The position numbers and the translations under genes are program-made. DNA of 64,000 bases from an uncultured Desulfovibrionaceae bacterium (GTDB lineage: Bacteria; Desulfobacterota; Desulfovibrionia; Desulfovibrionales; Desulfovibrionaceae), in NCBI GenBank assembly GCA_944324045.1, contig CALUUT010000051.1:1-64000 (forward strand), in the 5' to 3' direction. Positions within the stretch are counted from its first letter, which is position 1, and every line of letters begins with the position of its first letter. Below, one piece after another: positions 18,012 to 29,586 of this stretch. The notes beneath the pieces were generated by a model that was not told the origin of the DNA, ran no database searches, and worked only from the letters and a program-made list of their open reading frames with translations.

Positions 18012-18129
18012 CCACGCTCAAAGAAAACCAGCATTCCAGACTTGCCGGAATGTCTCTGTGTTCAAAAACGGCCTTTCCAAAAAAGCGCCGGTTTGAAAAG
18101 GGATGATTCCGGCAAAAAAGGAAAACGCC

Positions 18130-18987
18130 ATGCCTCGCACGCCAGCTTTAATGATCCAGGGGACCTCTTCCAACGCGGGCAAAACTCTGCTTTGCGCGGC
18201 GCTATGCCGTATTTTTACGCAAGCCGGATATGCAACCGCGCCGTTCAAAGCCCAGAACATGACCGGAAACGGCTTTGCCCTGCCCGATGGCCGGCTCATG
18301 AGCGGCGCTCAGGTTCTCCAGGCTGTCGCCGCCCGCCGCGCGCCTGAGCCGCGCATGAATCCGGTAATGCTGCGCCCGGTTTCCACCATGGGTTCAGAGG
18401 TTCTTCTCATGGGAGAAAGCAAAGGCGTCATGACGGCGCGCGAATATATGGCCTATAAAAAAACCGTGTTTGACCAGGTGACGGCGGCCTACGACGCGCT
18501 TGCGGCCGAAGCGGACATAATGGTTCTTGAGGGCGCGGGCAGCCCCGCTGAAATCAATCTGCGCCAAAACGACATTGTCAATATGGGCATGGCCGCGCAC
18601 GCAAACGCCGTGGTTCTGCTTGCGGGCGATATCGACCGCGGCGGCGTGTTCGCGCATTTTCTGGGAACTGTCGCTTTGCTTGACGAAAAAGATCGCGCGC
18701 GGGTTCAAGGATTCATCATCAATAAATTCAGGGGCGACGCAAGCCTGCTTGACTCCGCGACAGAAGAAGTCTCGCGGCGTTCCGGCATCCCTTTTCTCGG
18801 CGTTGTGCCGTTTATGCGGCATGATCTTCCCCAGGAAGATTCGCTTGCCGTCAAAGAACACGGCGGCAAAGGCTTGCTCCTTACAGATCCGCGCGTGGAC
18901 GCGGAGCTGGACGCGCTTGCGGACACGGTGCGCGCCGCTCTTGACATGAACGCAATTTTTGCCCTGCTGGGCCGCTCCAAAGAATAA
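18130..18987 (+). CDS. Cobyric acid synthase (CobQ/CbiP) homologue lacking the glutamine amidotransferase domain
   Basis: Full-length CobQ/CbiP (about 480-540 residues) amidates four carboxylates of adenosylcobyrinic diamide using an N-terminal ATPase domain and a C-terminal class I glutaminase domain. Here the product is 285 residues. The P-loop [53 protein letters not shown] and FIINKFRGD are all intact. After EEDSLAV-like QEDSLAV the protein passes almost directly into [19 protein letters not shown], which matches the extreme C-terminal tail of full-length enzymes. The glutaminase domain of roughly 200 residues is missing without a frameshift. Start 18130 follows AAGGAAAA. Confidence 0.8.
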
Positions 18988-25180: not shown

Positions 25181-25921
25181 ATGACGAGCGTACCGAACAG
25201 GCAAAAGGAAATTATTCTGTATATCAAACAACTCATCGCCAGCGGGCAATACAATGTCGGAGACCGGCTGCCTTCTGAGGCGGAGTTGGCGGAAAAATTC
25301 AATGTGGCGCGCAGCGTTGTCCGGGAGGCTGCAAGCGTGCTCAAGGCCGAGGGCTGCATAGAGGCCCGGCGCGGGCGCAACGGAGGCTTTGTAGTGGCGA
25401 ATCGCGGTTTTGACGTGGTCATAGATCGACTTATGGACCTGCTTCTGGCCGGAAAGATCACCCTGCGCCAAGCCGCTGATGTACGCCTTAAGCTGGAAGT
25501 AGATTCATGCCGGGCCGGAACGGCGAACGTCACGGATGAAACAGTGGCCAGGTTGCGCGCTCTTGATGCGGCAATGCTGAACTCAAAGGACAAATCCGAG
25601 CACACGCGCCTTAACGCGGAATTCCACGCCTGCATCGGCATGATGGGCGGCAACAAACTCCAGGGAATTTTGCTGGTAATGCTCCTGCAGTTCGTGGGCA
25701 GGGCATCGGAAATTCTCACGGACGACGTGCAGTCCATGCATTCCGTGGACGAACATATTCCGATCATCCAGAGCATTGAAGCCCGTGATGTTGAAAGCGC
25801 ATGTCACTATCTGACGGAGCACATCTCCAAGGCTGTGAATAGATTGGAAAGTGCGGAGAAAGACCTGTTGACCAAAAAAATTCATGCATCCTTTGCCCGC
25901 GGCGATATCATCCAAATCTGA
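25181..25921 (+). CDS. GntR-family transcriptional regulator, FadR/FCD subfamily
   Basis: 246 residues. N-terminal winged helix (about 8-75): IASGQYNVGDRLPSEAELAE and VARSVVREAASVLKAEGCI are standard GntR segments, followed by a GGFVV beta-hairpin. The C-terminal all-helical FCD domain (about 95-230) has LNAEFHACIGMMGGN and VDEHIPIIQSIEARD, with the Asp/His-type residues that bind a metal and a small carboxylate in many FCD proteins. It lies 111 bases before the glycyl radical enzyme gene, so it probably senses that enzyme's substrate or product (inference). Confidence 0.92.
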   Translation: MTSVPNRQKEIILYIKQLIASGQYNVGDRLPSEAELAEKFNVARSVVREAASVLKAEGCIEARRGRNGGFVVANRGFDVVIDRLMDLLLAGKITLRQAADVRLKLEVDSCRAGTANVTDETVARLRALDAAMLNSKDKSEHTRLNAEFHACIGMMGGNKLQGILLVMLLQFVGRASEILTDDVQSMHSVDEHIPIIQSIEARDVESACHYLTEHISKAVNRLESAEKDLLTKKIHASFARGDIIQI

Positions 25922-26032: not shown

Positions 26033-28483
26033 ATGTTGAAAGAAGCCGTTCACCACCAGGCCACGGGAGAAAAGAACCTTCACGCTCCCAATATCAACTG
26101 GGAAACCGCGCCGCAACGGATTAAGGAACTCCGGGATTTTCTCCTGGACGCGCCGCAGCAACTTGCGCCGGAACGTCTGGAATGCCTGCTTGAGGTATAC
26201 AAGGAATACCGTGGAGAAGCGCCGATCTATATTCGGGCCAAACTTTTTGAAAAACTTCTGACCACAAAGCCTCTTTTCCTTGACGGCAACCCCATTGTGG
26301 GAACCATGACCGGAACGCGCGCCGGAGTATACGCCTATCCGGAATGGAACGTGGCCTGGATACGAAACGATCTGGACCGGGCCATGATGAGCCATCTTGG
26401 GGAAGTGAAAATGCCGGAATCAACCCGCAAGCTTCTGGAAGAAACCTACGAATTCTGGAACGGCCACACCACAATCGACCGGGCGAACGCTTTGTTCGAA
26501 GAGCTGTACGGCATCGACCCGCGTCCTCTGTTTCGCTGCGGGGCAATGTATGACGGTTGTTCGCACTCTGAAGGCTTGGGCGTGGCGGATTATCCGCGGG
26601 TGCTCAACGAGGGCATGGGCTCCATCCTCAAAGATGTGGAAGAACGCCTGCAACGCCTTCTGCCGCCTCGTGAGGCCAACAAAAACAAAATCGATTTTTA
26701 CCGCGCCGCAATTATTGTCCTGAAAGCGGCCATAGCCATGGCCAACCGGTATGCGGATCTTGCGGAAGAAACAGCGGCCAAGGAAACAGACCCCAAGGTC
26801 AAAGCCGAACTCCTGGATATCGCCGAAGTTTGCCGCCGGGTTCCCGAGCATCCTGCGCGCACCCTGCGCGAAGCCATGCAATCCTTCTGGTTCGTCCACC
26901 TCTGCCTTGACATAGATCAAATGGGTTGCGCCACCTCGCCCGGCCGTTACGGCCTTTATATGGACCCCTTTTACCAGAACGATCTGCGGGAAGGCCGGCT
27001 CACCCGCGAACAGGCTCTGACTCTGCTCAAATTTCAATGGATCAGGCATCTTGAAGTCGGCCACTATCAGGGACAGGACTATGCCCTGCTTCTGTCCGGA
27101 CACACCGGCCAGACCATCTCCATCGGCGGCGTAACCGCGGATGGACAGGACGCCACAACCGAAATGGACGAGCTTTTGCTTGAAACGCAAATAGCCATGA
27201 AAAACGTACAACCCACGCTCAGCCTGTTCTATCACCGGAACATGAAAGAAGACTTTTTGAACAAGGTTGTGGAGCTCATTCGTTGCGGCACGGGGCAGCC
27301 CCAGATCATGAACAATGACGTGGCCATTGCCCGAAATTTAAGCCGCTGGTCTGAAAACGGCATCACTCTTGAAGATGCGCGCAACGTGGCCAATTTCGGA
27401 TGCGTGGCTACCGGCGTTTGCGGAAAATCCACGCTGAACCATATCGAATGCATCTGGAATATGGCCAAACCGGTGGAACTTGCCCTGAACAACGGCTTTG
27501 ACCCTGTCACGAAAAAGCAAATAGGGCCGCAGACCGGCGATCCTGAATCGTTTGAAACCTTTGAGGACTTCTACAACGCGTTCAAAACCCAGATGGATCA
27601 TATCATGCATATGAACCGCCTGCATTCCTACATCGGCAACATGATGCGCGACAAGGTCACGCCCTGTCCGTTCCGCTCCGTCATGATCGGCGGCTGCATC
27701 GAACGCGGAGACTATGAACAGGCCAATGGCCCGTACTATCCGCAATCCGTCAGCATTTCCTGCGCTGGCATAGACGCGGCCAATTCCCTGAACGCTCTGC
27801 GGGACCTTGTCTATGAACGCAAAAAAGTTTCCATGAAAGATCTGCGCAAAGCGCTGGCCGCAAACTTTGAAGGCTTTGAAGACATTCAAAAAATGTGTCT
27901 CAATGCGCCCAAGCATGGAAACGACGACCTGAAAACCGATGAACTGACAAGACGCATGTATGCGGACGCAGCGGATCTCTATGACTTCTACGGCCCGGAT
28001 TATGCCGGCCGCAAGGGCAAATTCGACGCATATTCCATGTCCATCCACAACTACATGGGCAAATTGACCGGCGCCTTGCCTTCCGGCAGGAAAGGCGGCG
28101 TGGCGCTCACGGACGGCAGCGTTTCAGCGACGCCCGGAACAGATCATGAAGGAGTCACCGCGCTTGTGAATTCGGCGGCGCGCGTCATCGACACGGTCCG
28201 CTTCGCATCAAACCACTGCAACGTGAAATTCCATCCCTCAGCTCTGGAAGGTCCGGACGGAGCGCGCATGTTGCTTGGCATCATCAGGAGCTATTGCGAT
28301 ATGGGCGGCTCGCACATCCAGTTCAACTGCGTCAGTTCAGATACGCTTGTAGACGCGCAAAAGCATCCCGAAAACTACAAAGACCTGGTGGTCCGCGTGG
28401 CGGGATTCAGCGCATACTTTACCCGTCTGGACAAAGGCGTACAGGATGAAATCATAAAACGGACCGAATACAAGTCCGCATAA
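26033..28483 (+). CDS. Glycyl radical enzyme of unassigned function, lacking the usual Cys-x-Glu glutamate
   Basis: 816 residues, PFL-like fold. The C-terminal glycyl loop is RVAGFSAYF with the radical on Gly791. The thiyl cysteine is Cys457 in NFGCVATGVCGKS. In known diol/choline/hydroxyproline dehydratases, sulfonate lyases and arylacetate decarboxylases the cysteine is followed by x-Glu; here it is Cys-Val-Ala, so that acid/base is missing. The CC pair of pyruvate formate-lyase is absent too, although a second cysteine (Cys463) follows six residues on. SVMIGGCIERGDYEQANGP replaces the usual DDCI-GKDxxxGGA stretch. No small subunits of the benzylsuccinate-synthase type are encoded beside it. 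Start has AAGGAG. Substrate unknown; anaerobic, oxygen-sensitive chemistry is certain from the family. Confidence 0.95.
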   Translation: MLKEAVHHQATGEKNLHAPNINWETAPQRIKELRDFLLDAPQQLAPERLECLLEVYKEYRGEAPIYIRAKLFEKLLTTKPLFLDGNPIVGTMTGTRAGVYAYPEWNVAWIRNDLDRAMMSHLGEVKMPESTRKLLEETYEFWNGHTTIDRANALFEELYGIDPRPLFRCGAMYDGCSHSEGLGVADYPRVLNEGMGSILKDVEERLQRLLPPREANKNKIDFYRAAIIVLKAAIAMANRYADLAEETAAKETDPKVKAELLDIAEVCRRVPEHPARTLREAMQSFWFVHLCLDIDQMGCATSPGRYGLYMDPFYQNDLREGRLTREQALTLLKFQWIRHLEVGHYQGQDYALLLSGHTGQTISIGGVTADGQDATTEMDELLLETQIAMKNVQPTLSLFYHRNMKEDFLNKVVELIRCGTGQPQIMNNDVAIARNLSRWSENGITLEDARNVANFGCVATGVCGKSTLNHIECIWNMAKPVELALNNGFDPVTKKQIGPQTGDPESFETFEDFYNAFKTQMDHIMHMNRLHSYIGNMMRDKVTPCPFRSVMIGGCIERGDYEQANGPYYPQSVSISCAGIDAANSLNALRDLVYERKKVSMKDLRKALAANFEGFEDIQKMCLNAPKHGNDDLKTDELTRRMYADAADLYDFYGPDYAGRKGKFDAYSMSIHNYMGKLTGALPSGRKGGVALTDGSVSATPGTDHEGVTALVNSAARVIDTVRFASNHCNVKFHPSALEGPDGARMLLGIIRSYCDMGGSHIQFNCVSSDTLVDAQKHPENYKDLVVRVAGFSAYFTRLDKGVQDEIIKRTEYKSA

Positions 28484-28686: not shown

Positions 28687-29586
28687 ATGAGCACAGGAAT
28701 GATCTACAATATTCAACGTCTTTCCACGAAAGACGGACCCGGAATCCGTACCGTCGTATTTTTCAAGGGATGTCCGTTACGCTGCCGGTGGTGCTGCAAC
28801 CCGGAATCGCAACGCCAGGAAGCAGAGCTGCTTGTTTTCAGCGCTCAATGCGTCCAGTGCGGCCGGTGCATGAATGCATGTCCGCGCCATGCCGTCTCCA
28901 TGCCGCTGGGCGGGACGCCCCGCCTTGACCGTTCGCTGTGCATGGCCTGCGGGACATGCGCCGATATCTGCCCGGTCAACGCCCGCGAGCTTTGCGGACG
29001 GGAAATGGAACTGGACGAAGTCATGCGCGTGGTGAAAAAAGATCTTGTCTATTACCGCAATACAGGCGGCGGCGTCACATGCAGCGGCGGAGAGGCCACC
29101 GTTCAAAGCGCCTTTCTTCTGGAGCTTCTGGAACGCTGTTTTTATTCCGGCATCCATACCGCTCTTGAAACCTGCGGATTCTGCGCCTGGGAAACCCTTG
29201 AAAAGGCGCTCCCATTTTTAAACCTTATATTATATGACGTAAAACACCTTGAATCTGGCGCACACCTGGAACTTACCGGCGCCGACAACGCGCGCATTCT
29301 TGAAAACCTCAAAAAACTGGCTGCCCGCAGCGCGCCTGTTATTTTGCGGATGCCCTTCATTCCTGGAAAAAACAATTCCCGCGAACATATTGAACAGCTC
29401 GGCGTATTCGCGGCGGAACATGATCTGCGGGACATACACCTTATTCCGCTTCATGGACTGGGACTCGCCAAATATTCGGCCTTGGACCGCCCTCAGCCGA
29501 ACGACACGCGCAATGAGCAGGGGCTCGCGCCGCGCGAGGCCGCGGACCTCCTCAGTCTATTCTCTCTAAATATTTCAATAATCTGA
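28687..29586 (+). CDS. Glycyl radical enzyme activating enzyme (radical SAM, two ferredoxin clusters)
   Basis: Uses S-adenosylmethionine and a [4Fe-4S] cluster to abstract hydrogen from the glycine of the upstream enzyme. 299 residues. Radical SAM cysteines: Cys29-PLR-Cys33-RW-Cys36. Then an inserted ferredoxin domain with CVQCGRCMNACP and CMACGTCADICP (about residues 55-100), as in activases of dehydratases, arylacetate decarboxylases and hydrocarbon-adding enzymes but not of pyruvate formate-lyase. TCSGGEATVQ matches the activase GGE motif. The ATG at 28687 follows AAGGAGAG; an in-frame start at 28669 lacks support. It sits 203 bases after the enzyme gene and is followed within 11 bases by the next gene. 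Confidence 0.94.
   Translation: MSTGMIYNIQRLSTKDGPGIRTVVFFKGCPLRCRWCCNPESQRQEAELLVFSAQCVQCGRCMNACPRHAVSMPLGGTPRLDRSLCMACGTCADICPVNARELCGREMELDEVMRVVKKDLVYYRNTGGGVTCSGGEATVQSAFLLELLERCFYSGIHTALETCGFCAWETLEKALPFLNLILYDVKHLESGAHLELTGADNARILENLKKLAARSAPVILRMPFIPGKNNSREHIEQLGVFAAEHDLRDIHLIPLHGLGLAKYSALDRPQPNDTRNEQGLAPREAADLLSLFSLNISII

Follow-up and report, generated by a model that had tools for sequence, protein, structure and literature searches.

A glycyl radical enzyme (GRE) encoded in the window, a stretch of 64,000 nucleotides from an uncultured, gut-type Desulfovibrionaceae bacterium, appears from its sequence to belong to a distinct, widespread and uncharacterised GRE family, in which the glutamate of the Cys-x-Glu (C-x-E) motif is never present and the pocket is rebuilt throughout. 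With its dedicated activase and a small IscA-fold protein, the enzyme seems to form a three-part module. This clade is a stronger sign of a distinct enzyme than is the loss of the glutamate, from which an earlier note on this DNA had argued for possible new chemistry. GREs drive much of the anaerobic chemistry of gut and sediment, including that of trimethylamine, p-cresol, skatole and sulfide. Many of the abundant ones have no assigned function. A defined residue signature, together with a new small partner gene, makes a whole clade recognisable here, and the clade is open to direct test: it comes down to three genes, its hosts include cultured organisms, and the residues to mutate are few. 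Should the second cysteine of the signature, Cys299, or the IscA-fold protein prove essential, it would mean that glycyl-radical chemistry can be steered in a new manner.

An intact enzyme and its clade

The window protein has the features expected of the superfamily: both domains (Pfam PFL-like, 540.7 bits, and Gly_radical, 97.5 bits, each far over its cut-off), a Cys loop (NFG-Cys457-Val-Ala-Thr-Gly), an RVxG glycyl loop (RVAG791FSAYF) and a partner radical-SAM activase. The coordinates are collected in Table 1. The earlier note had described Cys457-Val-Ala in place of Cys-x-Glu, and an intact Gly791 loop with a dedicated activase; both are borne out, as the thiyl loop can be read directly within a complete frame and the activase carries CPLRCRWC (CX3CX2C) and two ferredoxin-type CX2CX2CX3C clusters. 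The enzyme is thus intact and probably active. A degenerate or inactive copy might be suspected from the few positions at which the window protein deviates from the clade, such as Leu308 where all others have Gln. However, the frame, Cys457, Gly791 and all signature residues are intact, a strong ribosome-binding site (AAAGGAGAAC) lies 5' of the gene, the enzyme's own activase retains all its cysteines and the nearest homolog stands at 66% identity, and we regard inactivity as highly improbable.

Table 1. Features of the GRE locus, in positions of the window
Feature	Position	Strand	Remarks
GntR-family regulator, FCD ligand domain	25181..25921	+	Pfam GntR 63.6, FCD 52.2 bits
Glycyl radical enzyme, uncharacterised clade	26033..28483	+	816 aa; complete ORF
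Cys299 codon, second cysteine at glycerol dehydratase His281 position	26927..26929	+	63/63 clade, 0/15 references
Gly359 codon, replaces usual Phe/Trp/Tyr (HPAD F405, IAD F401, IslA W374)	27107..27109	+	
Cys457-Val-Ala459, thiyl cysteine and site of absent C-x-E glutamate	27401..27409	+	
Glu472 codon (Cys+15), conserved acid at fumarate-Arg position of BSS/MasD	27446..27448	+	
Asp665 codon, acid in 63/63 clade, at IslA Arg678 position	28025..28027	+	
Gly791 codon, glycyl radical site, RVAGFSAYF loop	28403..28405	+	
Radical-SAM GRE activating enzyme, two extra ferredoxin clusters	28687..29586	+	NCBIfam TIGR02494 337.5 bits, cut-off 174
A-type (IscA/ErpA-fold) protein, 98 aa	29598..29894	+	NF033940 66.5 bits, cut-off 65

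No NCBIfam equivalog came near its cut-off for the window GRE, and even PFL2-3, a broad subfamily, was missed (537.1 against 678.2 bits). Pyruvate formate-lyase can be rejected: its Cys-Cys pair is absent, as previously described, with Cys457 followed by Val and TIGR01255 reaching 102.6 bits against a cut-off of 994. Aminoacyl radical enzymes have Ala, Ser or Thr instead of the radical Gly (PMC11528403), and this assignment is rejected because the radical residue here is Gly791. Benzene activation by a GRE was likewise set aside, since the benzene paper invokes a flavin system (PMC13101534).

Within the clade alignment, which comprises 63 sequences, a few of them near-duplicates, identity to the window GRE is 42-66%, against at most 36% for the characterised-type GREs compared; two outgroup rows (L082 and L083) stand at 43-44%. 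In the maximum-likelihood tree a single branch, with an SH-aLRT of 90, separates the clade from the other rows, and the window GRE is sister to L055 (SH-aLRT 99) within a 14-row subclade (SH-aLRT 100). The nearest outgroup rows include two GREs with Cys-Val-Gln (CVQ) at the thiyl site, L006 from the host genome and L083. Because the enzyme clusters with no characterised enzyme, its reaction likely differs from those assigned to characterised GREs. The earlier suggestion of an active enzyme with an unassigned substrate is supported in the same way, the best solved relative being only about 33% identical and no NCBIfam equivalog scoring over its cut-off.

In the host's family, 19 of 149 genomes hold a homolog at 50-61% identity. 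A contig scan yielded 59 loci, spread over Desulfovibrionaceae, other Desulfobacterota, Pseudomonadota (Telmatospirillum, Rhodomicrobium and termite-gut Rhodocyclales), Bacillota (Butyrivibrio and Formimonas) and Chloroflexota. Desulfovibrio piger carries two copies. A scan of 150 Lachnospiraceae genomes for more clade loci gave a match only in one genome that was already known. Tandem pairs of clade GREs were seen in Desulfosarcina alkanivorans (L064) and in Butyrivibrio (L078/L080), and the Butyrivibrio tandems adjoin two SsuA-type ABC systems.

The missing glutamate and the rebuilt pocket

The C-x-E glutamate is the defining feature of the GRE eliminase class; all structurally known eliminases retain it, and IslA E470Q is dead (PMC8473560). 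The window GRE has Ala459 at this site and so falls outside the class as defined. The earlier note had also counted the glutamate as common to characterised arylacetate decarboxylases, which is too broad, as the arylacetate decarboxylase AAD (7e7l) reads GCVLHQVPGKQ, with Leu at Cys+2 (CVL), and phenylacetate decarboxylase (PAD) has Gln (PMC9248008). The Cys loop of MasD is CMS, again without Glu, and four of the seven GREs in the host genome lack the residue (two AADs with CVL, one with CVQ and the window GRE). Given these enzymes, three of which are characterised, absence of the glutamate alone is no proof of new chemistry, and the step from one to the other is not supported; the loss appears less unusual in itself than first thought. 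Across the 63 clade sequences Cys+2 is Gly in 33, Ser in 21, Ala in 7, Thr in 1 and Pro in 1, and never Glu. With Gly, Ser or Ala in 61 of the 63, the small residue at this position is no accident.

By alignment, acids are kept elsewhere in the pocket region. Position 665 is Asp or Glu in every clade sequence, and an acid stands at Cys+14 or Cys+15 (471/472) in 59 of 63. As these acids are conserved in the clade, outright loss of the catalytic acid is not established, and the acid may rather have been relocated or replaced.

Ten positions in the alignment separate the clade from 15 reference GREs. These pocket positions rest on alignment registers, that of column 359 being backed by HPAD F405, IAD F401 and IslA W374, which share the column, and that of beta8 by the R-x-V-x-F of IslA, which matches R678/V680/F682. 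The column of the invariant Cys299 holds Thr in IslA and CutC and, in glycerol dehydratase, the active-site residue His281. Position 359 is Gly or Ala in the clade and Phe, Trp or Tyr in the references, except in the host's CVQ GRE, which has Ala. The signature further includes the small residue 459 with Thr or Ser at 460, and Arg548 is present in all clade members. An outlying member, L075, deviates at three of the ten positions. The Arg678 of IslA, the counterpart of Asp665, contacts the sulfonate (PMC8473560).

The AlphaFold model of the window GRE (pLDDT 93) is closest in fold to glycerol dehydratase, HypD and propanediol dehydratase. These eliminases (1r8w; 6vxc; 5i2a and 9rco) share 31-34% identity and a TM-score of about 0.9 with the window GRE, and have the same barrel and the same Cys and Gly loops. 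However, the C-x-E glutamate, the His281/Thr site on beta2 and the aromatic residue over the Cys are all replaced in the window GRE.

Fumarate addition, of the type seen in BssA and AssA/MasD, finds one point of likeness in the small Cys+2 residue that MasD has as well. The fumarate-binding Arg of these enzymes is found at Cys+15 (BSS R508, MasD R492; PMC12358834), a position taken by Glu472 in the window GRE, and Arg is not among the residues listed for this column in the clade. Moreover, few GRE matches outside PFL score as low as BSS and MasD, and genes for HiPIP-type subunits are absent from the window locus. On two of these differences, Glu472 and the lacking subunits, we have ruled this reaction out as a working candidate and consider an X-succinate synthase extremely improbable. 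The earlier statement that no small subunits of the fumarate-adding type are encoded nearby thus holds for the HiPIP type, but it overlooks a conserved gene for a 98-residue IscA-fold protein, 11 bp past the activase gene.

Activase and IscA-fold partner

Neighbouring genes at the clade loci were called using codon usage, against antisense ORFs. An activase adjoins the clade GRE in 47 loci, and a gene for an IscA-fold protein of about 95 residues lies at most 1.9 kb downstream of the GRE, on the same strand, in 37 of the 46 loci with enough sequence. Some loci have two or three copies of it, in tandem for example in L038, L044, L047 and L049. The 14 control GRE loci gave no convincing IscA-fold gene, with one marginal match (E 0.008). 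In 25 of 58 loci a Sigma-54/PAS-type regulator is encoded close to the GRE; the window instead has the FCD-GntR regulator, which lies 111 bp upstream of the GRE and matches no NCBIfam equivalog at its cut-off.

The model of the partner (pLDDT 94) matches E. coli IscA best (1s98, TM 0.73), and its fold is shared with the A-type Fe-S carriers IscA, ErpA and SufA and with DsrR. It differs from the A-type carriers in keeping only the first of their conserved cysteines and in being genetically tied to a GRE. The conserved C-terminal CxC was not found in the partner family or in the window's copy of it, which has a single Cys, and Cys37 is the only invariant one. We infer that the partner may supply a cluster to the activase or act as an accessory subunit.

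Candidate reactions

We propose, tentatively, that the window GRE is an active member of a clade of lyases for an imported small ionic compound, with an organosulfur compound as first choice. Small residues at Cys+2 and in place of the aromatic over the radical site would make for a roomier pocket. The eliminase glutamate and aromatic would be replaced by the acid at 665, usually by a second acid at Cys+14/+15, and by the invariant Cys299. One or both acids could be the base, or could hold a cationic group or a hydroxyl, and Cys299 could be a second hydrogen donor or a nucleophile. The enzyme would most likely break a carbon-heteroatom or carbon-carbon bond of some small ionic compound brought in by a dedicated transporter; the carbon-sulfur bond of an organosulfur compound would be the first candidate, for sulfur salvage or use of the carbon skeleton.

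The gene neighbourhoods lend this proposal some weight. An importer or TauE cluster occurs in 26 of 58 clade loci, the transport genes beside the GREs being SsuA/TauA-like ABC systems with a binding protein (12 loci), TRAP DctPQM (6), an APC permease (7) and TauE/SafE (4). Sulfur-linked enzymes include an O-acetylhomoserine sulfhydrylase in L069 (645 bits, cut-off 495), a PLP enzyme of Cys/Met metabolism in L066 and an SfnB/DszC-like oxidoreductase, below its equivalog cut-off, in L063. In Butyrivibrio (L080), two clade GREs have as neighbours a GRE of the sulfonate type (NF048011, 1370 bits, cut-off 1000) and its SsuA-type transporter. The sulfonate GREs IslA, IseG and HpsG are likewise found in Desulfovibrionaceae with TRAP or ABC uptake, and this one Butyrivibrio locus holds both kinds. 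The window GRE is only 30-32% identical to them, lacks C-x-E and Trp374 (Gly359), and scores 456.1 bits with NF048011; the exchange of the IslA/HpsG sulfonate Arg for an acid argues against the same mode of sulfonate binding.

Sulfur-linked genes are nevertheless confined to few loci, and the window locus has neither a transporter nor a sulfur gene. Most substrate-binding proteins (SBPs) of the clade loci score under the SsuA cut-off (69.5, 73.9 and 83 against 163.5 bits), and NMT1/SsuA-type SBPs accept many ligands. For the TRAP SBP the nearest solved homolog is 4n6d at only 108 bits, a match that carries no ligand information. Searches of the host genome for dsrA, aprA and NIR_SIR domains found none of them, so released sulfite would have no known route there, being neither respirable nor assimilable by known enzymes. 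Sulfite release for respiration was accordingly lowered for the window's own host, although dsrA exceeds its cut-off in 50 of 59 relatives. The few sulfur loci, the SBPs under cut-off, a host with no detectable sulfite reductase and a window locus that carries no transporter are the reasons for which we put the probability of the organosulfur reading near one third.

It is possible, if somewhat unlikely, that the clade makes up a GRE class of new function, marked by Cys299, the relocated acid 665 and the IscA-fold partner, that performs a new reaction such as C-S cleavage without a neighbouring hydroxyl.

Two further readings are kept close behind the organosulfur lyase. In the first, the enzyme would be a Glu-independent decarboxylase like AAD or PAD, abstracting a hydrogen next to the carboxylate, losing CO2 and taking the hydrogen back from Cys457. 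AAD (Leu) and PAD (Gln) lack the same glutamate, and AAD and PhdB resemble the window GRE in having no HPAD-type small subunit. The host has many GREs of the arylacetate decarboxylase kind (IAD, HPAD, HPAD-like and two AADs), the CVQ enzymes are among the nearest outgroup rows, the transporters and the FCD-GntR regulator would suit a carboxylate, and such a reaction needs no downstream enzymes, as in the window locus. However, the carboxylate-binding Arg on beta1 (HPAD R223) is Leu182 in the window GRE and Ser or Ala in the clade, whereas all three HPAD/IAD-type GREs of the host genome have Arg in this column; Phe401, essential in IAD (PMC9248008), is Gly; and identity to any arylacetate decarboxylase compared is at most 36%. 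The host's two AAD-type GREs (L001 and L002) are 30% identical to the window GRE with different pocket residues; L001 scores 1339 bits to 7e7l, and the two form a pair outside the clade (SH-aLRT 100). PhdB, compared by its described residue only, has Gln where the window GRE has Ala459 (PMC9248008). We thus find a decarboxylase unlikely. The HPAD/IAD type in particular was lowered, as its Glu1 (Ala459), its beta1 Arg (HPAD R223, IAD R226; Leu182) and its Phe are all missing; the two equivalogs gave 400.1 and 496.6 bits against cut-offs of 1150 and 1100.

In the second, the enzyme would be an eliminase cleaving a C-N or C-O bond in an amine-bearing substrate, its base moved from Cys+2 to Asp/Glu665 or Glu472. 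Eliminases are the best matches in both fold and sequence, the conservation of the acids at 665 and 471/472 would fit, and the APC permease that adjoins the GRE in seven loci is of the amino-acid type. Yet the known eliminase structures all keep C-x-E, IslA E470Q is dead, and the GRE has no conserved neighbour in the main clade that would handle an aldehyde or imine. A moved base is therefore, in our judgement, rather unlikely.

Several minor observations accompany these results. The O-acetylhomoserine sulfhydrylase of L069 (L069:13379-15535) is apparently fused to an N-terminal Fe-S domain and has a clade GRE and an activase as neighbours. The Fe-S part also occurs by itself, next to the GRE in L067 and at a short distance from it in L041. 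The host genome (G000; 2.55 Mb, completeness 100, seven GREs) is apparently not that of a sulfate or sulfite reducer, judged by the undetected dsrA, aprA and NIR_SIR. Its arylacetate decarboxylase set is unusual (L001, L002, L005 and L007), with two AAD-type enzymes, an HPAD that clears its cut-off (1486.9 bits) and an HPAD-like protein that falls just short (1063.9 of 1150 bits). It also encodes an indoleacetate decarboxylase (L004, G000:C9:4405-6498; NF033718 1608.9 bits, cut-off 1100), an enzyme reported only from Clostridiales and Coriobacteriales (PMC6181972), and contamination of the contig is possible. The CVQ GRE nearest the clade (L006, G000:C56:256-2241), with Ala for the pocket aromatic, is possibly phenylacetate-decarboxylase-like. 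Elsewhere in the window, positions 18103-18987 (+) encode a truncated cobyric acid synthase that retains the N-terminal half only (protein 15-253, model 2-241 of 480).
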